A DNA stretch of 64,000 bases from Verrucomicrobiota bacterium (GTDB lineage Bacteria; Verrucomicrobiota; Verrucomicrobiia; Palsa-1439): contig PLZV01000025.1 of NCBI GenBank assembly GCA_003152315.1, positions 1-64,000 of the forward strand, written 5' to 3'. Shown piece after piece: positions 15,839-53,694 of this stretch. The first letter of the stretch is position 1. Each line of letters opens with the position of its first letter. The notes beneath the pieces were generated by a model that ran no database searches, was not told where the DNA came from, and saw nothing but the letters and a program-made list of their open reading frames with translations. The position numbers were made by a program, and so were the translations under genes.

Positions 15839-15992
15839 GCTCAAAAAGGGTCGAATTGTGGTGTCCGGTGGGTTCGTTTTCCAAACCGAGTCGGACGAGA
15901 TGCCGCGATGTAGTTGCCGCGGCAACCGAACCCCTCAAAACAAGCCCAATTGTGGTGTCCCGGTGGGTTCGTTTTCCAAAACGAACCCACCG
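15839..15992. repeat. Direct repeat (about 45 bp, about 92-bp period) ending in a perfect 32-bp palindrome
   Basis: Two copies of CTCAAAA..AATTGTGGTGTCC(C)GGTGGGTTCGTTTTCCAAA; second copy forms CGGTGGGTTCGTTTT-CC-AAAACGAACCCACCG (15961..15992). Confidence 0.8.
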
Positions 15993-16804: not shown

Positions 16805-16930
16805 CCCCAAAAAGCAAAAGAGCGGGAGGCATATCCCGCTCTTTTGAGACTAGAAACGCTTTTGAACCGATGTATCCGCGTGGCGGATAGGGAAGCGGTC
16901 TGCGTTATCTAACTTTGTCTTGATTCCGGC
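16805..16930 (-). ncRNA. Predicted tracrRNA of the type II CRISPR locus
   Basis: Minus strand GGAATCAAGACAAAGT pairs with crRNA repeat 5' end GCTTTGCCTTGATTCC (15/16 incl. one G-U); followed by hairpin TATCCGC-CAC-GCGGATA and 12-bp terminator stem + TTTTT. Confidence 0.85.
16816..16845 (-). terminator. Rho-independent terminator of predicted tracrRNA
   Basis: AAAAGAGCGGGA-TATGCC-TCCCGCTCTTTT then GCTTTTT on minus strand. Confidence 0.85.
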
Positions 16931-16934
16931 GGGA

Positions 16935-16964
16935 AGAGTACCAGAATCACCCCATGAGTGCCAA
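16935..16964 (-). promoter_or_regulatory. Predicted tracrRNA promoter overlapping the cas9 start codon
   Basis: Minus strand TTGGCA-N18-TACTCT with TGG extended -10; expected start about 16928 at the anti-repeat. Confidence 0.55.
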
Positions 16965-19900
16965 GCAGAATCCTCCTCCGGACCTCTCGCTCTCCTTCGA
17001 CGTGGGACACAGTTCCATAGGCTGGGCCGTTCTGCAAACGAGCCCTGATGTGGAGATCAAAGGTTGTGGTGTGGTCATCTTCCGCGCTGACGATTGTCTA
17101 GCGAGTGCGCGTCGTGGATACCGGCGACAGCGGCGTCATATTCGCAGCACACGACAGCGTATCAAGCGAATGAAGGCGCTGTTGTTGCATCTCTGCGTTT
17201 TGACGCAAGCCCAACTGGACAAGCCCGGCTGCGCGTGGCCGTGGAAGTTGGCGGGGCGTGTTCTGGCGGGTGGCAAGACGCTAACCTGGCCTGAGCTTTG
17301 GGACGTGTTGCGCTGGTACGCGCACAATCGTGGCTACGACGGTAACCGGCGGTGGAGCGCCGGTGAGGCAGCCAATGAGAAGGAAGACCAAGAGAAAGTC
17401 CAGAACGCGCATGCATTGATGAGGGAACACGATAAGCAGACAATGGCTGAGACGTTCTGTGCGGTTTGCGGCATTGATCCGATGGGGGCGAAGTGTTCTT
17501 CCAATATTGATCCAGCGAAGAGGTTCAAAGCGAAGAATGCAGCATTCCCGCGTGGAATTGTGGAAGCCGAAGTCGCTCGTCTCCTTAGAACGCACTTCGG
17601 AAAGTTAAAAGGTGTGGATGAGAAGTTCGCCACGGCGATGTTCAGCGACTGGAGGGCTCTCTCGTGCCCAGCAATCAAACTGCCAATACGGTATCAAGGC
17701 GGGTTGTTGTTCGGCCAACTTGTGCCACGCTTCGACAATCGCATCATCTCCAAGTGTCCCATTACTGGCCAGAAAGTCCCGTCGCGGAACACCCGTGAAT
17801 TTCTCAGTTACCGGTGGGGCATGTTATTGGCAAATGTACGGGTGGCGCGATTGGCCGACCGTGAGTTGAAGCCTCTTACCGTCGAGGAGCGGAAGGAACT
17901 CGACAAGCTAATGCGGGCCGAAGGTAGCATGACCGCCAAACAGTTTACAGAAGCCGTGGAGAAAGTAGCTGGATCTATCCGCCACAATCTCTCCACGATG
18001 CTGATGCACCCAGATGCCAAGGACGCGTTGGTGCTCGACGCGGTGCAGGAATGTTTGACTACGGAAAAACCAATGCCGGTCAAAGCATTGTTCGCGGCAT
18101 TACCGACACGGATCCAGAAACGAGCACGCGGTCAGTTGCGGCGCGGCCAGTCATTCACGTTCGCCGCGCTCTACGAAGCAGCGAAGCAAGCCGAGGAATT
18201 AGTGGCAGCATTCGATGCCGCCGTACAACAACAACTCGATAAGGCTGCTGGTAAGGGACGAAAGAAGGATAAGCCATTAACACGCGACGAATTGTTAGCG
18301 AAGTCGTTGTCGGTACGCAAACTCAGTGGTCGCGCTGCCTATGCGCGCCCGATTCTCGTGCAGGCGTTCGCGGAAGTGATGAATGGTAAGCATCCGAAGG
18401 AAGAAGGTGGCTGTCTATTTGTGACGGAGAAAATGCGTGAAGCGCAATTAAACCGCACGCTTGCCCAACAGACCAACAACCACCTTGTCCGGCATCGCCT
18501 GTTGATTCTCGCGCGGGTACTGAAAGACATCATCGAGGAATATGCCGGCGGCGACAAGAAACGCGTAGGCAAGATGACCATCGAAGTAAATCGCGATCTC
18601 CGCGAGATGTCCGGCAAGACTGCAAAGGAAAAGGCGCAGGATCTCGGCTTGCGGCTTGCAAACTTCAAGAGTGTCGTCAAGAAACTCGAAGAAGCGTTTG
18701 AAGGAAAACAGATTCGCATTACACCGGGATTGATTCGAAAGGCTCGCATTGCCGAGGACATAGGCTGGGTGTGCCCTTATACTGGCGAGCACTATGATGC
18801 CTTTGATCTCCTGCACAAGAATGTTGACCTCGATCACATCATTCCGCGAGCAGATCGTCCGAGTAACTCCTTAGATTCATTAGTCGTGACGTTTCCAGAA
18901 GTCAACAGAATGAAGGGGAAGCGCACGGCGCTTGCTTTTATGAAAGAGGCAGAAACAAAGCAGGTCGAAGGACTACCTCGTTTGACACTGAAGTCACTCA
19001 ACCATTTTAAGGCGGACATCGAAGCATTGCGCCCCGGTTCCGACCCGCGTAAAGCAAAAAGGCGTGGTGCGGTGACTGGACCGATTGACGATGATTTACG
19101 CCGTTGGAAACGCAAGGAGCTTTTGCTAAAGGTTGAGAAATGGGATGGTGGTGATTTTCTCCCTGCGGACTTAACCGTCACATCGCAACTGGTGCGGTTG
19201 GGCGCGCAGGCACTCAAGCGCGAGTTTATAGATTTGGAAGAACCTCCGGTGACCGTCTCGTTACCGGGTGCTGTCACCGGTGAAGTTCGCAAGGCGTGGG
19301 ATGTTCTTGGTTGTCTGAGCAAGGCGTGTCCAGAAGTACTCGATGCTGAAGGTAAAGTGAAGACCAAGACAGAAATTCGTGACATCACGCACCTGCACCA
19401 CGCTCTTGATGCGTGTGTAATCGGTTTGGCGGCGCATTTCATTCCGAATAGGGGGCGCGTGTGGGAGCTGATCACCAAGCGCAGACTAACGGCTGCTGAG
19501 CAAAGCGAACTTGTCGCCTTGAAGGTATTCACTCCAGAGTCGCATGGAGAGGTTCGGCTTAATGACTTGAAGCCGGAGCGGAAGGAGCAAATCCGCCAAC
19601 GTCTGGCCGAGAGGCGCGTTGTGCAGCATATTCCGAAGCGGATTACCGGTTTGCGTGTTGAACAAAACACCTGGCGTGTGCAAAGCATTGAGGATGGCGA
19701 TGTGACCCTTACGCAGCGCATTCGTCAGCCGGATGGGAAGCGTCCACGGAAACAGGTCATACAGCGATCTGGCAAACTTATCGGATTAGAGCCTGGTAAG
19801 TTGCAAACACTCAAAGGCGCATTGGTTATTGGCGAAAATTTCGGAGTTGCACTTGACCCGACGCCGACTGTGATTCATTTCCACAAGGTTTGGTCGCGCT

Positions 19901-20226
19901 TGCGGGAATTGAAGAAGGTAAACGGCGGCAAAATGCCACGTGTCTTGCGAAATGGTCATTTGATACGCGTGTCTGAAGGGTCGCGGGCTGGGCTCTGGCG
20001 GGTTACTTCAATCAAACAGACGGAAGCATATGGTTTGGCTCTTGATCTGGCTTATCCAGATAGTGTGGGCTTAAGTCGTCCGAATGCTCCTATATTACAA
20101 CTACAAGCTGAAGGGTTGGCGATTGTTGGCACTTCTCTGACAGGATTCGACGCGTCGGCTGTTATGTACGCTGCCATCAAGCGTCGCCCTCGCAAACTTA
20201 AAACAGAGCAATCGGAATCGTCGTAA
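16954..20226 (+). CDS. cas9: CRISPR-associated endonuclease Cas9 (type II-C-like, 1090 aa)
   Basis: RuvC-I LSFDVGHSSIGWAVL; Arg-rich bridge helix RRGYRRQRRHIRSTRQRIKRMKAL; RuvC-II MTIEVNRDL; HNH VDLDHIIPRADRPSNSLDSLVVTFPEVNRMKG; RuvC-III LHHALDACVIGLAA; followed by cas1, cas2, array. Confidence 0.97.
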   Translation: MSAKQNPPPDLSLSFDVGHSSIGWAVLQTSPDVEIKGCGVVIFRADDCLASARRGYRRQRRHIRSTRQRIKRMKALLLHLCVLTQAQLDKPGCAWPWKLAGRVLAGGKTLTWPELWDVLRWYAHNRGYDGNRRWSAGEAANEKEDQEKVQNAHALMREHDKQTMAETFCAVCGIDPMGAKCSSNIDPAKRFKAKNAAFPRGIVEAEVARLLRTHFGKLKGVDEKFATAMFSDWRALSCPAIKLPIRYQGGLLFGQLVPRFDNRIISKCPITGQKVPSRNTREFLSYRWGMLLANVRVARLADRELKPLTVEERKELDKLMRAEGSMTAKQFTEAVEKVAGSIRHNLSTMLMHPDAKDALVLDAVQECLTTEKPMPVKALFAALPTRIQKRARGQLRRGQSFTFAALYEAAKQAEELVAAFDAAVQQQLDKAAGKGRKKDKPLTRDELLAKSLSVRKLSGRAAYARPILVQAFAEVMNGKHPKEEGGCLFVTEKMREAQLNRTLAQQTNNHLVRHRLLILARVLKDIIEEYAGGDKKRVGKMTIEVNRDLREMSGKTAKEKAQDLGLRLANFKSVVKKLEEAFEGKQIRITPGLIRKARIAEDIGWVCPYTGEHYDAFDLLHKNVDLDHIIPRADRPSNSLDSLVVTFPEVNRMKGKRTALAFMKEAETKQVEGLPRLTLKSLNHFKADIEALRPGSDPRKAKRRGAVTGPIDDDLRRWKRKELLLKVEKWDGGDFLPADLTVTSQLVRLGAQALKREFIDLEEPPVTVSLPGAVTGEVRKAWDVLGCLSKACPEVLDAEGKVKTKTEIRDITHLHHALDACVIGLAAHFIPNRGRVWELITKRRLTAAEQSELVALKVFTPESHGEVRLNDLKPERKEQIRQRLAERRVVQHIPKRITGLRVEQNTWRVQSIEDGDVTLTQRIRQPDGKRPRKQVIQRSGKLIGLEPGKLQTLKGALVIGENFGVALDPTPTVIHFHKVWSRLRELKKVNGGKMPRVLRNGHLIRVSEGSRAGLWRVTSIKQTEAYGLALDLAYPDSVGLSRPNAPILQLQAEGLAIVGTSLTGFDASAVMYAAIKRRPRKLKTEQSESS

Positions 20227-20244
20227 GTCCGTAGTCATTAAAGC

Positions 20245-20260
20245 TGGCACGATTCTGGCA
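20245..20260 (+). promoter_or_regulatory. Candidate sigma54 (-24/-12) promoter upstream of cas1
   Basis: TGGCACGATTCTGGCA in the 60-bp cas9-cas1 gap; GG-N10-GC spacing; one mismatch to YTGGCACGrNNNTTGCW. Confidence 0.35.
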
Positions 20261-20286
20261 TCAATACGGCATGAGAAGTTGCGCTC

Positions 20287-21204
20287 ATGTCGTATCACAT
20301 CATTAGCATCGATAGCCCACAGTGCTCGATCAGTTGTCGCGACGGGCAGTTGACGTGTAAGTCCGCCGACGGCGAGAAGAGCGTGCCGTTGGAAGACGTC
20401 GCTTCCATTATCATCAATAGTTTCTCGGCGTCGATTCACAGCCAGTTGATCGTGGAGGCCGCGAAGCACGGTGTGGCGTTGATCATTTGTGAATCGTTCA
20501 AGCCCATCAGTCTTTTGCTGCCAGCCAATCGATCCACGGACACGCTCTTGTGTCGCGCGCAGGTTTCGTTGACCGAGGAAGTTCGGATGCAGCTTTGGCG
20601 AAAGACTTTCGACGCCAAGTGTCAGAATCAATTCTCCCTGGCTCAGCACACTGTGCCAAACGATGAACGGTTGGAGGTTCTTCGCAGTACCGCCTTCGGC
20701 AAGAAGGATCACAAGGAGGCGATCTGTGCGCGGATGTTCTGGCAAATGTTTGGTCGGAGCTTGAATAATCCTGATTTTCAGCGCGACCGCGAGAGTGGCG
20801 GGCTGAATGATTTGCTGAATTACGGTTACGCCGTGCTGCTGTCCACAATCCTGCAGAAGCTGTTTGGCGTGGGGCTTGATCCGACGTTCGGCATCTCGCA
20901 CGCTCCGCGTGAGCGCAGCACGCCGTTGGCGTATGACCTCATGGAGCCGTTTCGTCCGTGTGTGGATTGGCGAGTGTATCAGTGGGCGAAGGAACATCCC
21001 GATCCGAAGGATTGGCAGGTCAGTAAAGAGTTTCGCCAATGGGTCACCAAATTCCCCTTGCAGCGCGTGGAGTATTTGGATTTGACGCTGGAGGTGCAAG
21101 GTTGCATCGAAGGGGTCGTGCGCGGTTTTCGACGCGCCGTGTTGTATAAGCAGCCGCGACTTTATAAACCATGGACACCGAGAAATTCAAAATGGGCTGG
21201 CTAG
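20287..21204 (+). CDS. cas1: CRISPR-associated endonuclease Cas1 (type II)
   Basis: 305 aa; VPLEDVASIIINSFSASIHSQLIVEAAKHGVALIIC typical Cas1 N-terminus; DLMEPFRPCVDWRVY; between cas9 and cas2. Confidence 0.95.
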   Translation: MSYHIISIDSPQCSISCRDGQLTCKSADGEKSVPLEDVASIIINSFSASIHSQLIVEAAKHGVALIICESFKPISLLLPANRSTDTLLCRAQVSLTEEVRMQLWRKTFDAKCQNQFSLAQHTVPNDERLEVLRSTAFGKKDHKEAICARMFWQMFGRSLNNPDFQRDRESGGLNDLLNYGYAVLLSTILQKLFGVGLDPTFGISHAPRERSTPLAYDLMEPFRPCVDWRVYQWAKEHPDPKDWQVSKEFRQWVTKFPLQRVEYLDLTLEVQGCIEGVVRGFRRAVLYKQPRLYKPWTPRNSKWAG

Positions 21205-21506
21205 TCGTTGCGTTCGATCTGCCCGTGATGAGCCGGGAGCAGCGGAAACGCGCCGCCGGTTTCAGAAACTTCCTGATCGACGATGGCTACCAAATGATTC
21301 AGTACAGCGTTTATGCGCGGGCGTGCGTGACGTTTGCCCGGCAGGAGACACACTTGGGCCGGGTGAAGCAGAACCTTCCCGAAGAAGGCAGTGTCCGGGC
21401 ACTCTTTGTGACCCGCGCCCAATGGGAACGATCCTTCGTTATTCAGGGTTCCCCCGCTTCGGCAACCGAGGCGGAGGAGATGCCTGAACAAATCCAGCTT
21501 TGGTAA
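21171..21506 (+). CDS. cas2: CRISPR-associated endoribonuclease Cas2
   Basis: 111 aa; WLVVAFDLPVMSREQRKRAAGFRNFLIDDGYQMIQYSVYAR; overlaps cas1 end, abuts array. Confidence 0.95.
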   Translation: MDTEKFKMGWLVVAFDLPVMSREQRKRAAGFRNFLIDDGYQMIQYSVYARACVTFARQETHLGRVKQNLPEEGSVRALFVTRAQWERSFVIQGSPASATEAEEMPEQIQLW

Positions 21507-21537
21507 AGCCCGTATGCCGCGGGCCTTACAATCGGCC

Positions 21538-22363
21538 AGTATGCCCCCGCCGATTTAGGAATCAAGGCAAAGCCCGAACTCCACAGTGGCGAAACGGAGC
21601 GGCAGTATGCCCCCGCCGATTTAGGAATCAAGGCAAAGCGATCCCTTCGTCCACCGACATCGGTCGGGTAGTATGCCCCCGCCGATTTAGGAATCAAGGC
21701 AAAGCACGGCCATGCCGGTGCGTTCGCTCAGATGAAGTATGCCCCCGCCGATTTAGGAATCAAGGCAAAGCAAGGGCATATCGAGACACTTCAACGAGAT
21801 CAGTATGCCCCCGCCGATTTAGGAATCAAGGCAAAGCTGGCCCACGACTGGCCCGGGAACATCCGCGAGTATGCCCCCGCCGATTTAGGAATCAAGGCAA
21901 AGCATCACTCATCCCCGGGTTGGCCCGGGCAAAGTATGCCCCCGCCGATTTAGGAATCAAGGCAAAGCAACAACTCAATGATCGCGATGCTGACTGCCAG
22001 TATGCCCCCGCCGATTTAGGAATCAAGGCAAAGCAACCCAAACCCACAACCGAAAGAAAGCGCAGTATGCCCCCGCCGATTTAGGAATCAAGGCAAAGCT
22101 GGCGGCACCAGCGATTCGGTTTCCAGTCCAGTATGCCCCCGCCGATTTAGGAATCAAGGCAAAGCCGCGGTTCTTGGCGGTGGCGGATGTGCGAGAGTAT
22201 GCCCCCGCCGATTTAGGAATCAAGGCAAAGCAACAGCTCAATGATCGCGATGCTGACTGCCAGTATGCCCCCGCCGATTTAGGAATCAAGGCAAAGCTCA
22301 ACCAATGGAGCATGACGAGAGATTGCCAGTATGCCCCCGCCGATTTAGGAATCAAGGCAAAGC
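21538..22363 (-). CRISPR. CRISPR array: 13 identical 36-bp repeats, 12 spacers (29-30 bp)
   Basis: Plus-strand repeat AGTATGCCCCCGCCGATTTAGGAATCAAGGCAAAGC starting at 21538, 21604, 21670, 21736, 21802, 21868, 21933, 21999, 22064, 22130, 22196, 22262, 22328; minus orientation (GCTTTGCCTTGATTCC...GGCATACT) inferred from tracrRNA complementarity. Confidence 0.98.
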
Positions 22364-34826: not shown

Positions 34827-37800
34827 ATGAGGCATCGGATTCACCGTGGCACCGCCGTAATCGTCGCACTGTGGTTGCTATCCAGTTCGCAAGTAGCCAG
34901 CGTTACTGCCAACACCCTGGATCATTTCGGTTTTGCTCCGATCATCAGCCCGCAGACGTCCACGGTACCATTTACGATTACCCTCCAGGCGCAGGATGTG
35001 ACGAATGCGCTCGTAACCGGATTTGTTGGCCCTGTCACCCTGAGCGCGACCGGAAGCAATGGATCGGAACCCCTGACGCCCACCAGCTCCGGGACATTCA
35101 GCGGAGGCGTCTGGACTGGGAACGTGACGATCAATGTGATCGACTCGAACATCGTGTTGCAAGCCTCGGATGGCGGGGGGCATACGGGATCGAGCAATCC
35201 GTTTGATACCACCTCGACTCATGTACGGGTAATCAATCTGGCGGCGTCAGACATCGGCTACGATCCATTCTCGGACAAGATTTATGCGAGCGTGGGCAGT
35301 GGCAGTTTATCGAACACCGTGACGGTGATCAATCCTGCGACGGGTGCCATCGGTTCTTCCGTGCAGGTCGGTCCTGGCCCCGGAAGGATTGCGGTTGCCG
35401 ACAATGGCCAACTACTCCATGTGGCGGTGAGTGGTCTGAATGCCGTGAAACAGGTTATGATTCCGTCGCTGACGCCCGGGTTGAGTTTCTCAACCTACAG
35501 CGGCTTGCCCCTGACGGACATGGTACCCGTGCCCGGCTCGGCGGGTTCGGTGGCTGTCGCCGTGTACCGCGCATCCGATTACGGACGAGTCGACACGATT
35601 TACGACAATGGCGTGGCGCGGGCCAATGTGGCAAATGCAGCGAATGTCATTCGATTCGGGGGAACCAACACGGTCTTGTATGGCGTGAACAACATCTTTG
35701 ATCAAGTCCACTTCGATTTTTATGCCATGAGCGTGGATGCCTCGGGTGCGACCGTTACGAGTTACGTCCCAAACCTGGTCGGGGGCTTTTATGGAGTTTA
35801 TGTTGAATATGGGGGCGGCTTGCTCTTTACCTCGTACGGCCAGATGATCGATCCAGTGGCTGGCACCGTAATCGGCGGCTTCCCGGCGAACGGACCGGTG
35901 TGGCCTGATACGAAAGCCGGTCGCGTGCTTATCCTATACGGTTCCACCCTTCAGGCGTATGACCTCACCACGTCGGCGTTGATAGGGTCCCAGACCGTGT
36001 ACGGCATGTCGGGTTCGCCGGGATATCTGATCTGGGCGGGAGCCAACCGGGTCGCGTTTGAAACAAGCGCTGGCGAGGTATTCATCGTTGATACCGGCCT
36101 CGTCCCGTCAGGGGGGCCTGCCGACCTGGCGCTGATCGGATCCGATTTTCCGAACCCTGTCGACATTGGCAGCAATCTCACGCATTCGATCACCATCACC
36201 AACCTGGGTCCGAATACCGCGACGAATGTCCTGGTATTGGAGACCCTGCCTGCCAACAATATACTGGTGTCTGCCACAGCTTCGCAGGGCAGTTGCACAC
36301 AAGACGCGGGTGTGGTGAGATGTTCGCTGGGGTCGATCAATAGCGGCGCCGCAGCGACGGCGAACATTGTCGTGCAAGCTACCAAGGCAGGTCCCGTTCA
36401 GACTGTAACCGTGGTGACCTCGGATACGACCGATTCCACCTTGACCAATAATGTCGTGACCAACCTGACGACGGTCGGGTTTATACCCGCATCGGACAGC
36501 GTGAACGTTCTCAACTTGACGACCAGCGACCTTATTTACGACACGCACTCCGCACGATTGTACGCCAGCATTCCCGATGGCGTCACGGGGGGGATTAGCA
36601 ACAGCGTTGCGGCAATCGACCCGATGACAGGGTTGGTGGGGCAACAAGCATTCGTTGGTGAAGGGCCGGGGAAGCTTGCGGTGGCTGACAACGGTCAGTA
36701 TCTATACGTGGGCCTGACTGGCACAAACCTGGTTGCCAGACTCGATTTACCTTCGATGACGACCGGACTCGTGTTTAGTCTCGGAACCAATCAGTCGGCC
36801 GGGGCCCGATACGTTGACGACATGGTGGTCTTGTCGGGCTCGTCGGGTTCCGTGGCCATTACCCTGACGAACTCCTGCTGCTCCCCCGCTTATGATGGCG
36901 TGGTGGTTTTCGACAACGGTATTCCACGCTCAACGGTAATCCCGCCGGGTATCGGACCTGACACCCTGGCGTTGAGCGGCACAAGCACCGTGCTGTATGG
37001 ACACGATAACGAGTCTCCCCTGCATGGCTTTTATACAATGAACGTCAGCGGTTCGGGCATGACCGTTACGTCGGATGTGCCCGATCTGCCCAATGCCTCT
37101 TGCGACATCGCTTTCGATGGCGGCTTGATTTTCACCAGCACGGGCGCGGTCATTCAACCGACCAATAGCACGCAGACCACCCCGTTTCCAGCGAGCGGTC
37201 TGGTCTGTCCTGACCTGGCCGATGGCCGGGTGTTCTTCCTCAATGGGTCGACACTGCAGGCATTCGATCCATACACCCATCTCCAGATCGGTTCGGTGCC
37301 AGTGTCCGGAATATCGGGTGCGACTGCCGGTCTGGTTCGTTGGGGCGCCGACGGTTTGGCTTTCACCACCAGTGGCGGGCAAGTGTTTGTATTACGGACA
37401 TCCTTGATTCCGTCGGGATCGGTCGCCGACCTCTCCGTCCAAGCTCTCGCGTCACCGACCCCGGGGGAAATGGGGATCGCCATGACCAACAGTGTTACCG
37501 TGACGAACAGTGGCCCAGCCGACGCAGCCAATGTCGTGGTGCTGGACAGTTTGCCTGCGGGCGTATCTTTTAACTCCGCTGTTTCGTCCCAGGGAAGTTG
37601 CACGCTGAGTAACGGTCTTGTCGTCTGCAACCTCGGCACGGTGGCCGCCGGTGCGTCGGCATCGACGACAATCAGCTTCACACCTTCCATCGGGACCATG
37701 CCAACGAACGTGCTCACGAGTACTGTTCTCGTCACATCTGCCGCATCCGAGCCGAACTTTGCCAACAATTCCACATCATTGGTTATGACGGTGGTCCTTG

Positions 37801-40800
37801 ACAGCGTCGGGGATGGAATACCGGATTGGTGGCGATTGCAATATTTCGGCAGCGCCAACACGACGAACCCGAATTCGTGCGCCACCTGTGACTTCGATGG
37901 CGATGGTTTCAACAACCTGCAGGAATTTCAGGCAGGCACCAACCCGGGGAATACCAACTCGTACCCGATCAATTGGCCGGTGTTGGTCGTGTCGAACGTG
38001 TTCAGTGGGTTGAGCAATCCGACCGTGGTCACCCACGCGGGTGACGGGAGCGGCAGGCTTTTCGTCTGCGAACGGATTGGCAGGGTTCGCGTTGCGAACC
38101 GCGGCATTCTTTCGCCTACGGCATTTTTGGACATCCGGACACGAGTGAAGACGAGTGACATCGAGCAAGGCCTGCTCGGCCTGGCCTTCCCGCCCGGCTT
38201 TACGATCACCAACAGTCATTTCTACGTCACGTACACGGATTCTTCGAACAACCTGGTGGTGTCCCGTTTCTTTGTCACGACAAACTCCAACGTGGTCAAT
38301 GCGGCGACGGAGCAGCGGGTCCTGACGGTGCCCAAGCCTTACACCAACCATAACGGAGGCCAGTTGGCGTTCGGGCCGGATGGCTATTTGTATGTGGGAA
38401 TTGGCGACGGGGGAAGCGAAGGAGATCCGCTGAACAACGGGCAGACCACGACGAACCTGCTTGGCAAGATATTGCGGATCGACACTGAGGGAACCAACCA
38501 GACCTACGGCATACCGCCGACGAACCCATTCGTGGGCAATGCTTCCTATCTCCCGGAAATCTGGGCCTACGGTCTCCGCAATCCATGGCGGTTCTCTTTT
38601 GACCGGCTGACGGGAGACCTCTACATCGGCGACGTGGGCCAGAACACTTACGAAGAGATTGACTTCCAGAGCGCGAGAGATCCGGGCGGCGAGAATTACG
38701 GCTGGCGGTGGTTTGAAGGGAATCATCCGTACAATCTGCCGCTGGGCGCCAACACGAATAACCTGACCTGGCCGATTATCGAATACTCTCACGCCAATGG
38801 TTGTGCCGTGATCGGGGGCTACGTCTATCGTGGTTCGGCGTACCCGCGAATGTACGGGATTTATTTCTTTGGGGACTACTGCAACGGGGCGATCCGGGGG
38901 CTGATCAGCCAGTCTGGGTTTACGAATCAGTTGTACAGCCTCAACGACTCGATCTCCTCGTTTGGGGAAGATGATGCCGGGAACGTGTACGTCTCGCGCT
39001 TTAACTCGGGCCTGATCTCCCAAATCCAGGACACGGGCGCGGCCTACACGCCCGTGATCGCTCCCAGTGGAGGCACCTACCCATCCAACGTGCTCGCCAC
39101 CGTGACCTGCAACGAAGCAGGAGCCATCATCCATTACACGACCAATGGAGTCGACCCGACGCAGAGCGATCCAACGATCCAGTCCGGCGGTTTGATTCCG
39201 ATCAACTCGACGCTCTTGCTGAAGGCTCGAGCCTTCAAGGCGGGCCTGAATCCGAGCCCGGTTGCTTCCGCGAATTACGTGCTGGCGGTGACAGCGCCCA
39301 CGTTCAGTCCGCCGGCAGGCACCATTACCAGGGGCACAACGATCACGATCACTACGGTGACTCCAGGAGCCACCATCCTCTACACGCTCGATGGCACTGA
39401 TCCGACGCCGTCATCCCCGGTGTACACTCCACCCTTGGTGATCAATGGCAGTGTCACCCTCAAGGCGAAGGGAGTGAAGACTGGATACAGCGACAGTTCG
39501 ATCAGCAGCGTCTCGTATTCACTGCCCTCTTCAGCGACACCACAATTCAGTCCATCCCAGGGACCCATCACAAACGGTACGCAGGTCACCATCACTTCCG
39601 GCACATACGGAGTGACGATCCATTACACGTTGGACGGTACGTCTCCGACCTCCTCTTCACCTGTGTACACGGGTCCGTTGCTCCTTTCCGGAAACGTCAC
39701 TCTGATGGCGATGACAGCCAGTCCTGATTACCAGGACGGTGCAATCCAAAGCGCATTCTTCGGATCGATACAATACGAGAACACCCTGGTAAGCACCCTG
39801 GCAGGGAGCGGGCAGGCGGGATTCAGCAATGGGCCGGGAATCTCTGCTCAATTCTACTATCCGCAAGGCATCTGCAACGACGGTTTGGGCAACCTCTACG
39901 TGGCCGACAGCGATAATAACCGGATTCGAAAGGTTTCGCCGTCGGGGTTCGTAACAACGCTCGCGGGAACCGGCGTGGCCGGAAACCAAAGTGGCCCGGG
40001 GGCGACCGCACAATTTGATCGACCCGTCGGCACCTGTGTTGATTCGGCTGGAAACGTCTATGTGGCGGACGCCAACAACCTCGCGATCCGGAAAATCAGT
40101 ACTGCGGGGACAGTATCGACAGTCGCCGGCGCCGGCGTATGGGGCTATTTGGATGGTCCGGCATTGACGGCCCAATTCAGCAATCTTGGCCTGATGACCA
40201 TTGACGGGGCGGGCACGCTTTACATCAGCGAGGTCGCCCGCATTCGGGAGATGAGCACGAACGCAATCGTGAGCACCCTGGCGGGCACCGGCACGGACAG
40301 TCCAGAAGGGTGGAGTCAGAATGTCGGCATCAGTGTTGACGGCTCGGGGAATGTCTTTGCGGCCATCGGTTACGGCACAATTTTGGAAGTCAGCCCGGCG
40401 GGAGTGGTGCAACTTTTCGCGGGCAAACCGTTTGCTGGTATCAACACGCAGGCCTACGCGGACGGGCCTCGTCTCTCCGCGCAATTTCTCGGGCCCGCCG
40501 CCACGGCGGTGGACAAACTGGGGAATTTGTACGTCGCGGATGGCAACTACATCCGCAAGATCAGCCCCAGTGGACTCGTCACTACTCTCGCCGGGAACGG
40601 GCAGAGCGGTAGCACGGATGGTCCTGGATGGCAGGCAGAGTTCAATGGTCCGTATGGGATTTGCGTCGACGCGGAGGGCAACGTCTATGCCGCTGACAGG
40701 AACAACCAGAAAATCCGGAAGATCGTCCAACTTGGCTGGGACGGGGATGGTGACGGCATTCCCGATGCTTGGACTCAGTTGTATTTTGGGCATCCGTATG

Positions 40801-41147
40801 GTCAGACGAATGATCTTTCCTGCGCGACTTGTGACGCCGATGGGGATGGCATGAACAATCTGCAAGAATTCCTGGCGGGGACCGATCCAACGAATAGCGG
40901 TTCGGCCTTTGGCATTATCAGCATCGCGCTTCAAGGTAACGACGTGCTGGTGACCTGGAGGACGGGGATGGGCAAGACCAATGCGCTGCAGGCTACTGCC
41001 GGTACCGTTGACGGGGCTTACGGTACGAACGCCTCCGCGGATCTGTTCATCGTCACCAACACCGTTGGCATCACGACCAACTATCTCGACCTTGGCGGTG
41101 CCACGAACACGCCGGCGCGGTACTATCGCGTGCGGTTGGTGCCGTAG
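34827..41147 (+). CDS. Giant secreted mosaic protein (2106 aa): DUF11-like repeats, GSDH-like domain, CHB_HEX_C-like and NHL repeats, Ca-binding motifs
   Basis: VTNSGPADAANVVVLDSLPAGV (DUF11); GDGSGRLFVCERIGRVRV...GDVGQNTYEEIDF (sugar dehydrogenase-like); TILYTLDGTDPTPSSPVYTPPL repeats; GNLYVADSDNNRIRKVSPSG NHL repeats; DGDGIPDAW...DADGDGMNNLQEFLAGTDPT. Confidence 0.88.
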   Translation: MRHRIHRGTAVIVALWLLSSSQVASVTANTLDHFGFAPIISPQTSTVPFTITLQAQDVTNALVTGFVGPVTLSATGSNGSEPLTPTSSGTFSGGVWTGNVTINVIDSNIVLQASDGGGHTGSSNPFDTTSTHVRVINLAASDIGYDPFSDKIYASVGSGSLSNTVTVINPATGAIGSSVQVGPGPGRIAVADNGQLLHVAVSGLNAVKQVMIPSLTPGLSFSTYSGLPLTDMVPVPGSAGSVAVAVYRASDYGRVDTIYDNGVARANVANAANVIRFGGTNTVLYGVNNIFDQVHFDFYAMSVDASGATVTSYVPNLVGGFYGVYVEYGGGLLFTSYGQMIDPVAGTVIGGFPANGPVWPDTKAGRVLILYGSTLQAYDLTTSALIGSQTVYGMSGSPGYLIWAGANRVAFETSAGEVFIVDTGLVPSGGPADLALIGSDFPNPVDIGSNLTHSITITNLGPNTATNVLVLETLPANNILVSATASQGSCTQDAGVVRCSLGSINSGAAATANIVVQATKAGPVQTVTVVTSDTTDSTLTNNVVTNLTTVGFIPASDSVNVLNLTTSDLIYDTHSARLYASIPDGVTGGISNSVAAIDPMTGLVGQQAFVGEGPGKLAVADNGQYLYVGLTGTNLVARLDLPSMTTGLVFSLGTNQSAGARYVDDMVVLSGSSGSVAITLTNSCCSPAYDGVVVFDNGIPRSTVIPPGIGPDTLALSGTSTVLYGHDNESPLHGFYTMNVSGSGMTVTSDVPDLPNASCDIAFDGGLIFTSTGAVIQPTNSTQTTPFPASGLVCPDLADGRVFFLNGSTLQAFDPYTHLQIGSVPVSGISGATAGLVRWGADGLAFTTSGGQVFVLRTSLIPSGSVADLSVQALASPTPGEMGIAMTNSVTVTNSGPADAANVVVLDSLPAGVSFNSAVSSQGSCTLSNGLVVCNLGTVAAGASASTTISFTPSIGTMPTNVLTSTVLVTSAASEPNFANNSTSLVMTVVLDSVGDGIPDWWRLQYFGSANTTNPNSCATCDFDGDGFNNLQEFQAGTNPGNTNSYPINWPVLVVSNVFSGLSNPTVVTHAGDGSGRLFVCERIGRVRVANRGILSPTAFLDIRTRVKTSDIEQGLLGLAFPPGFTITNSHFYVTYTDSSNNLVVSRFFVTTNSNVVNAATEQRVLTVPKPYTNHNGGQLAFGPDGYLYVGIGDGGSEGDPLNNGQTTTNLLGKILRIDTEGTNQTYGIPPTNPFVGNASYLPEIWAYGLRNPWRFSFDRLTGDLYIGDVGQNTYEEIDFQSARDPGGENYGWRWFEGNHPYNLPLGANTNNLTWPIIEYSHANGCAVIGGYVYRGSAYPRMYGIYFFGDYCNGAIRGLISQSGFTNQLYSLNDSISSFGEDDAGNVYVSRFNSGLISQIQDTGAAYTPVIAPSGGTYPSNVLATVTCNEAGAIIHYTTNGVDPTQSDPTIQSGGLIPINSTLLLKARAFKAGLNPSPVASANYVLAVTAPTFSPPAGTITRGTTITITTVTPGATILYTLDGTDPTPSSPVYTPPLVINGSVTLKAKGVKTGYSDSSISSVSYSLPSSATPQFSPSQGPITNGTQVTITSGTYGVTIHYTLDGTSPTSSSPVYTGPLLLSGNVTLMAMTASPDYQDGAIQSAFFGSIQYENTLVSTLAGSGQAGFSNGPGISAQFYYPQGICNDGLGNLYVADSDNNRIRKVSPSGFVTTLAGTGVAGNQSGPGATAQFDRPVGTCVDSAGNVYVADANNLAIRKISTAGTVSTVAGAGVWGYLDGPALTAQFSNLGLMTIDGAGTLYISEVARIREMSTNAIVSTLAGTGTDSPEGWSQNVGISVDGSGNVFAAIGYGTILEVSPAGVVQLFAGKPFAGINTQAYADGPRLSAQFLGPAATAVDKLGNLYVADGNYIRKISPSGLVTTLAGNGQSGSTDGPGWQAEFNGPYGICVDAEGNVYAADRNNQKIRKIVQLGWDGDGDGIPDAWTQLYFGHPYGQTNDLSCATCDADGDGMNNLQEFLAGTDPTNSGSAFGIISIALQGNDVLVTWRTGMGKTNALQATAGTVDGAYGTNASADLFIVTNTVGITTNYLDLGGATNTPARYYRVRLVP

Positions 41148-51558: not shown

Positions 51559-53694
51559 ATGAAAACCCTCACGTCTATTGCATTAGCCTTGTGCTTTGCT
51601 GCTGCCCCGGTTTGGGCGCGTGGCGGCGGCGGGTGTTTCGAGGAAGGCACGCCGATCCTCACTCCCAACGGTGAAGTTCCCATCGAACAACTGCGCGTCG
51701 GTGACGTTGTGATTGGTGGACGGGTGGAGGCGATTATCTGTGTCGAGCCCGAGGAGTATCTCGATGTTGGCAACGGCGTCCGCGTCACGGCCGAGCATCC
51801 TTTTCAAATCTCGCCCGGGGTCTTCCGGGTGGCTGATCGGGTGTTCCCGACTGCGCCGCGAGTCCGCGCACAGCATCCTGCGTACAATCTGCTCGTCAGC
51901 CCGAGTGGTACCTATATCGCGGGTGGCTTTGTCGTCCATAACAAAGGCTGCTTTCTGCCGGACACACCGATATTGCGCGCGGACGACACCGAAGTGCCGA
52001 TTCATGAGATTCGCACGGGCGACAAACTGCTTGCGTTCACGGCTGATGGGCAAGTCGTCCGTACCAGTGTGCGCAACATCGTGACCCACGAAGTGGACGA
52101 GTATCTCGAAGTGGCGACGGAACGCGCCGTCTTGCGTGTCACGGTGGAACATCCATTTTATGTGGGCGAGGGGACATTCAAGACACTTGAGGCACTCAAT
52201 GTTGGCGACAGCGTGTACGCTTACGACGGACACGGCCTGAGCGCCCAACAAATCGTAAGCATTGTGCACGTGCACGCGCGTACCCATGTTTACAATTTGC
52301 AGACCGACGCGCCGAACACTTTTTTCGCGAATGGCGTGGCCGTCCATAATAAAGGTGGTGGGGGAGGCGGGGGCGGATTTGGCGGTGGGGGATTTGGTTT
52401 TCATTCCGGTTCCGGAGGAGGTTCGGGTAGTGCGCCGACCGTCTTTCTCATTGTCGTGGGCGTTTTCGTGGTGATCGTGCTCATTCAGCACTTCAATCAA
52501 GGGGGTGACGATCAAGGGGGTGAGGATGATAACCTCGATTTCGTGAACAGCCCGAGCGCGGTTGCGCAAAAAGCCACGAAGACGAGCAAGTTGCTGGAGT
52601 TCATTGCGAAGGTCGATCCGTCTTTCAAGGAGGAGGCCCTCCAACAACGGGCAACGGAGACGTTTATGGAGTTGCAGAAATGCTGGCAAGCCCGCGAGTA
52701 CGGACCCATGCAGGCACTGTTGATGCCGGATTTATATACCGCACACTGTGCGCAATTGCAGGGATTACGCCGCGATCATGAGATCAACATGATTGAGAAT
52801 CTACGGGTCGAGCACGTGGATATTGTAAATGTACGCTACACGCACGAGGAGAATGAGTGCGAGTTCACGGCGTTAATCACAGCGCATGCGCGGGATTATT
52901 ACGTGGATGATCGTGACAGTCATATCCTGCGCGGGGACGAGGCATCGGCGCAGTTTCAGGAGTTTTGGACATTTCAGCGGCAGGATGGTGCGTGGCTGTT
53001 GCGTGAGATTGAGCAGACGCGTGAGTCGGACAAGCTGAAGGAGGAGAATTTCTTCGAGCAGTTCACGGACAAGGGGGTTGAGCAGGTGTATGGCAAGGCG
53101 GCAGGCCAGGAAGGCCCCGCGGGTCCATGGCTGGAAAAGTCGGTGGAAACAAAGGCCACCCGCATCGAACGGTTGTTGAACTTCCTGGCGCAGACGGACA
53201 AGCTTTGGGACCGGCAGGCGATGCTGGAGCGGGCGCGACAGGTTTTCACGGATGTTATGCTGGCGCGGGAAGCGGGCGATCCGACGGCGGTAAAGGATGA
53301 TGAGCTATTTCCCGCAGCGGGAGTGGATTTGCGCCAGCAAATCACCAAACAGCGGACCGCCGGGCCGAGCATCGAGTATCGCAACTTGTGCGTCCGAAAG
53401 GCGGAACTCATTCTCGTGCGCAACTTCGCGGACAATTCACACGACGAATATACCGTACGGATTAGCGCGCACGCGCAAAAAATCATCAAGCGGGGTGGGG
53501 TGGCTATCAGTCAGGACGAATTCGTCACACCGTTCATGGAATACTGGACGTTTGGGCGACTCGATGGTCAGTGGAAGCTTAAGGAAGTGCTGCCACCATC
53601 GCGGGGTGAAGAAGCCGTCCGCCAGGAGAATCTTGATGAGGACAGCAACGCCGCGCAGCTTCAATGGTACTACCAGCAAAGCCGCGCGACGTGA
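51559..53694 (+). CDS. Secreted/membrane protein: two tandem Hint (intein-like) domains + Gly-rich linker + TM + two Tim44-like domains
   Basis: CFEEGTPILTPNGEVPIEQLRVGDVV...VTAEHPF...GGFVVHN|KG then CFLPDTPILRADDTEVPIHEIRTGDKLL...VTVEHPF...GVAVHN|KG; GGGGFGGGGFGF; TM VFLIVVGVFVVIVLI; two Tim44-like segments. Confidence 0.88.
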   Translation: MKTLTSIALALCFAAAPVWARGGGGCFEEGTPILTPNGEVPIEQLRVGDVVIGGRVEAIICVEPEEYLDVGNGVRVTAEHPFQISPGVFRVADRVFPTAPRVRAQHPAYNLLVSPSGTYIAGGFVVHNKGCFLPDTPILRADDTEVPIHEIRTGDKLLAFTADGQVVRTSVRNIVTHEVDEYLEVATERAVLRVTVEHPFYVGEGTFKTLEALNVGDSVYAYDGHGLSAQQIVSIVHVHARTHVYNLQTDAPNTFFANGVAVHNKGGGGGGGGFGGGGFGFHSGSGGGSGSAPTVFLIVVGVFVVIVLIQHFNQGGDDQGGEDDNLDFVNSPSAVAQKATKTSKLLEFIAKVDPSFKEEALQQRATETFMELQKCWQAREYGPMQALLMPDLYTAHCAQLQGLRRDHEINMIENLRVEHVDIVNVRYTHEENECEFTALITAHARDYYVDDRDSHILRGDEASAQFQEFWTFQRQDGAWLLREIEQTRESDKLKEENFFEQFTDKGVEQVYGKAAGQEGPAGPWLEKSVETKATRIERLLNFLAQTDKLWDRQAMLERARQVFTDVMLAREAGDPTAVKDDELFPAAGVDLRQQITKQRTAGPSIEYRNLCVRKAELILVRNFADNSHDEYTVRISAHAQKIIKRGGVAISQDEFVTPFMEYWTFGRLDGQWKLKEVLPPSRGEEAVRQENLDEDSNAAQLQWYYQQSRAT

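Follow-up and report, generated by a model that had tools for sequence, protein, structure and literature searches.

The stretch of 64,000 nucleotides analysed here (the window), which comes from an uncultured member of the Verrucomicrobiota, very probably carries a complete type II-C CRISPR-Cas9 system, and one that, judging from its sequence, probably works. Type II-C is marked by an array that runs against the cas genes and by a minimal gene set (PMC3936727, PMC4607530). The locus contains cas9, cas1 and cas2 only; its Cas9 has both RuvC and HNH nuclease regions, a predicted tracrRNA with an anti-repeat is backed by covariation, and the direction of the array, as set by that anti-repeat, is opposite to that of the cas genes. 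An earlier note, made from the letters alone, had called the locus type II-C-like; its gene content, the family models, the structural neighbours of its Cas9 and the orientation of its array all speak for this reading. The locus belongs to a Verrucomicrobiota branch of type II-C that is widespread but, in the literature examined, little characterised; it is complete and open to testing, its guide RNA parts being defined well enough for an assay. Its features are as follows.

16809-16933 (approximate), minus strand: predicted tracrRNA, made of anti-repeat, three-helix core and terminator, divergent from cas9
16815-16846, minus strand: intrinsic terminator of the tracrRNA, a 13-pair stem followed by CTTTTT
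16852-16913, minus strand: three nested helices forming the tracrRNA core, a match to covariance model R1 at 86.3 bits
16935-16964, minus strand: weak sigma-70-like promoter candidate for the tracrRNA, TTGGCA-18-TACTCT (8/12), overlapping the first cas9 codons
16954-20226, plus strand: cas9, 1090 aa (ORF call, family models, alignment and structural model)
18676-19176, plus strand: divergent HNH/linker block of cas9, residues ~575-741
19966-20223, plus strand: divergent C-terminal (PAM-side) end of cas9, residues ~1005-1090
20287-21204, plus strand: cas1, type II, 305 aa (family models)
21171-21506, plus strand: cas2, 111 aa (family models)
21507-21537, no strand: gap of 31 nt separating cas2 from the array and containing a short inverted repeat, a possible leader or terminator
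21538-22363, crRNA sense minus: CRISPR array of 13 repeats and 12 spacers

Cas genes and type assignment

The earlier note had described a full-length 1090-aa Cas9 followed by cas1 and cas2, with neither cas4 nor csn2. All three genes lie where it had placed them, cas1 starting 60 bases after the end of cas9 and overlapping the cas2 reading frame, and neither cas4 nor csn2 was found between or adjoining the locus genes; the start it gave for the locus, 16805, extends over the tracrRNA terminator. The genome has a single copy of cas1. In NCBIfam, Cas9 scored 182 bits against TIGR01865 (cut-off 100), Cas1 166.7 bits against the type II Cas1 model TIGR03639 (cut-off 120) and Cas2 63.7 bits against TIGR01573 (cut-off 24.5). 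Pfam and PADLOC assignments agreed with these, and the HNH_4 match of Cas9 reached 54 bits.

The RuvC-I sequence SFDVGHSSIGWAV and the HNH sequence DLDHIIPRADRPSNSLDSLVV quoted in the earlier note are indeed in their places in Cas9, as is the RuvC-III motif HLHHALDA. The catalytic residues D16, E544, H816 and D819 of RuvC and H628 and N651 of HNH were invariant across 17 aligned Cas9s; we take them to be the equivalents of D10, E762, H983, D986, H840 and N863 of SpCas9, respectively. An AlphaFold model of the unbound protein, folded from the alignment of 17 sequences, had a mean pLDDT of 77.9 and a pTM of 0.53. Its top Foldseek neighbour was Nme1Cas9 (E 8.5e-25), with many other Cas9s also matched; the TM-score was modest (~0.47), as expected since the model is unbound and was folded from so few sequences. 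A sequence search of the PDB returned distant Cas9s only (best E 9.3e-10), which bears out the suggestion that this Cas9 differs from the commonly used orthologs.

We looked at whether the protein could instead be a II-D Cas9 (Cas9d) or another Cas9 outside II-C, which we consider extremely improbable. The Cas9d model did give a partial match of 114.9 bits; however, its cut-off is 375, far above that score, whereas the general Cas9 and type II Cas1 models pass theirs, and the structural neighbours of the protein are Nme1, St1 and Sau Cas9. Membership of II-D is thus disfavoured by the score. Like the type II-C system of Neisseria meningitidis, to which Nme1Cas9 belongs, the locus has cas9, cas1 and cas2 only, an array opposite to the cas genes and a Cas9 of ~1,080-1,090 aa. 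In contrast, the two proteins share only ~15% identity in the structural alignment, and the tracrRNA of the window has a nested three-helix core of its own family, adjoining cas9 and divergent from it.

The predicted tracrRNA and the array

The tracrRNA, which the earlier note had only predicted to exist, could now be placed on the minus strand. A scan for repeat-pairing sequence gave the anti-repeat CCGGAATCAAGACAAAGT, which lies on the minus strand with its 5' end at ~16929, 25 bases upstream of the cas9 start. In minus-strand reading the repeat begins with GCTTTGCCTTGATTCC, and the anti-repeat pairs with this sequence at 15 of 16 positions. Because chance matches of 15/16 are not uncommon in 64 kb once G-T pairs are counted, the argument for the tracrRNA rests on its conserved place and on covariation. 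An anti-repeat was found beside cas9 in 20 loci, forming a duplex with the same C-A mismatch.

The R1 match to the core was the sole one in the window and the sole one in the genome; a search of the window with Rfam gave no tracrRNA match at the gathering score. When the core was aligned in 17 sequences, 93.1% of the cells were paired and 9 pairs showed two-sided changes. The covariation score was 0.328, compared with 0.158 in shuffles, none of which equalled it, and with at most 0.083 when slid. The fold of the window itself served as the template for the core structure, a choice that tilts the result somewhat towards this structure, but further loci speak against this bias as the cause of the covariation: R1 matched the core in five loci that are absent from its alignment (L076, L078, L079, L080 and L081). 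Two more matches (L015 and L020) were copies of loci in the alignment, and one Cas9 locus of the family (L077) gave no R1 match. Across 57 genomes R1 matched only six (G000, G001, G003, G021, G035 and G037), precisely those of the 57 in which this Cas9 family is present at E < 1e-100; others, such as G004, G020, G024 and G053, have distant Cas9s only, at E ~1e-4.

A hairpin similar to the terminator closes most related tracrRNAs. As to the promoter, five relatives (L004, L034, L037, L038 and L040) have a strong sigma-70-like match (10-11/12) at the same place, ending 4-6 nt before the anti-repeat, so that the tracrRNA probably starts near the anti-repeat. The window's own candidates are weak, and a standard promoter scan at its threshold found no promoter in the window. 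Since the anti-repeat pairs with the minus-strand repeat, the array would be transcribed opposite to the cas genes.

The repeat is 36 nt long and reads AGTATGCCCCCGCCGATTTAGGAATCAAGGCAAAGC on the plus strand; its 13 copies, which had been said to look identical, are exactly so, and the spacers measure 29-30 nt. Spacers 7 and 11 (21969-21998 and 22232-22261) are near-duplicates, one base apart, so that the spacers are not quite all different. The differing base lies 5 bases from the PAM-side end in crRNA sense, and the pair was perhaps acquired from a phage and its escape variant. A −10-like promoter at the 3' end of each repeat is a frequent, though not universal, trait of type II-C. In crRNA sense, the hexamers that close the family's repeats resemble a −10 sequence (TATAAT, TACAAT, CACAAT, among others), as has been described for type II-C repeats (PMC4607530). 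The repeat of the window ends in CATACT, which matches at 4 of 6 positions, compared with stronger matches in relatives; transcription of its crRNAs from the repeat ends is offered as a suggestion only. The gap between cas2 and the array measured 31 nt in all five loci compared (the window, L001, L003, L011 and L012), and the short inverted repeat directly follows the cas2 stop in these loci, imperfectly in L012 as judged by eye. Short repeated stretches with 'ggtgggttcgttttccaaa' were also seen by eye in non-coding sequence at 15860-15990, upstream of the locus.

A known family and two divergent blocks of Cas9

The earlier note had left aside whether this Cas9 is new to databases: it is a new sequence from a known family, with relatives at 50-72% identity in many Verrucomicrobiota genomes. 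Twelve related loci were found in GTDB contigs; at E ≤ 0.001 matches came from 20 of 141 relatives, with distant Cas9s at the weak end, and at E 1e-20 from 21 of 388 genomes across the phylum. No relative of this Cas9 was found among viral contigs and plasmids. The family (L001-L012 and L034-L040, including Akkermansia genomes) is uncharacterised; its members have Cas9s 38-72% identical to that of the window, the same tracrRNA core at the same place and repeats sharing the end TCAAGGCAAA(G/A)C; where the locus sequence examined extends to cas1 and cas2, the genes follow in the same order. One of them, L001, is labelled Desulfocapsa, and its 5.5-kb contig may be misbinned. Four others (L037-L040, genus g9), which from their sequence we take to be Akkermansia, have the same layout and Cas9s 38-43% identical to that of the window. 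The Amuc_2008-2010 system of Akkermansia muciniphila is of the same phylum and type; the paper on it states that completeness and function of the systems it covers are not clear (PMC8262928), and our literature search found no characterised Cas9 from Akkermansia or Verrucomicrobiota.

The nearest relative, L012, belongs to the same genus, and its Cas9, Cas1 and Cas2 are 72%, 90% and 92% identical to those of the window, respectively. It has an identical repeat, different spacers and a near-identical tracrRNA core, but no flanking genes in common with the window, meaning that the locus moved or was gained separately. Another genome of the same genus as the window (G002) gave no family match.

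Compared in blocks of 50 residues, the Cas9s of the window and L012 are mostly 70-94% identical (63% at residues 151-200 and 58% at 401-450). Identity falls to 49-62% in residues 601-750, to 37% in 1001-1050 and to 27% in 1051-1090, so that in its HNH/linker and C-terminal blocks the Cas9 of the window departs from that of its nearest relative, while L012 itself stays close to several other relatives there. Among 384 genomes of the class, the best match was 60% for the HNH block of the window and 47% for the end block. These data point to a tentative reading in which the Cas9 of the window would be a mosaic that took its HNH/linker and PAM-side end from unsampled relatives and kept its RuvC frame and guide RNA, with a PAM unlike that of its nearest relative, which shares its repeat and has an almost identical tracrRNA. 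The other reading is that the blocks result from fast evolution along one lineage and not from module exchange, which is a real possibility, short of probable. The edges of the blocks are sharp, with 14 of 15 residues identical just before residue 575 and 15 of 15 at 771-785, which argues for exchange. The window and L012 group together in trees built from the N-terminal and RuvC-III parts (100/99 and 100/97), whereas the HNH tree places L012 with L003 and L004 (100/97), a grouping that the N-terminal part rejects (p 9.6e-5) and the RuvC-III part rejects marginally (p 0.052). However, the window lies on a long branch of the HNH tree, as fast evolution would have it, and AU tests on the HNH block did not clearly reject the pair of window and L012 (p 0.052 for 17 rows and 0.145 for 27), the groups for these tests having been chosen after the trees were seen. 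Altogether, the results suggest module exchange within the family and make it likely in the case of L012, and fast change is possible for the window. Exchange as such would not be new, because shuffling of Cas9 has been reported in type II-C loci (PMC12669027). As a pair, the window and L012, alike in repeat and tracrRNA core but not in the HNH part and ends of Cas9, would serve as a natural experiment for tracing the PAM to one part of the protein.

Proposed working and the search for spacer targets

From the intact genes, the uniform array and the pairing tracrRNA we infer an active Cas9. The tracrRNA would start near the anti-repeat and be transcribed away from cas9, and crRNAs would arise from the minus strand, perhaps from the −10-like repeat ends as in Neisseria and Campylobacter. 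The two RNAs would pair and load into Cas9, and the guided protein would cut matching DNA where a PAM adjoins the protospacer on its 3' side. New spacers would be inserted by Cas1 and Cas2, probably at the cas2 end of the array. This last point is probable and not sure, because the degenerate repeats of L006, L009 and L037 lie at the end far from cas2, whereas those of L012 lie at the end close to it.

A locus that is structurally complete but inactive, for instance because changes in the HNH or PAM-interacting parts block cutting, seems to us very unlikely. It is true that the HNH/linker and C-terminal blocks diverge from those of every relative sampled, and that the array is modest, its 12 spacers being without identifiable target. 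However, H628 and N651 of the HNH site are kept and the cas9 frame is open; identical repeats point to recent upkeep, and the near-duplicate spacers suggest real acquisition. A probably working system is thus the reading we retain.

When the spacers were searched against phage records, no protospacer was found for any of them, and seven spacers searched by exact match gave none in viral contigs, where one pattern covered the near-duplicate pair and four were 26-nt ends. The genome itself held no full-length self-match, and the 384 genomes of the class gave weak matches, again mostly to a sigma-54 motif. This motif also accounts for the sole match among plasmids, that of spacer 5 (21838-21867), which we rejected as a real target since the match falls on the conserved DWPGNIRE codons of sigma-54 regulators; this spacer reads as that motif and matches many such genes at ~90%. 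Without a protospacer no PAM can be given.

Two large proteins were noted elsewhere in the window. The first (51559-53694, 711 aa) shows Hint/intein-like matches close to the N-terminus, followed further along by a Tim44-like domain, and the second (34827-41147, 2106 aa) has DUF11, glucose/sorbosone dehydrogenase, Fn3-associated and NHL repeat matches.
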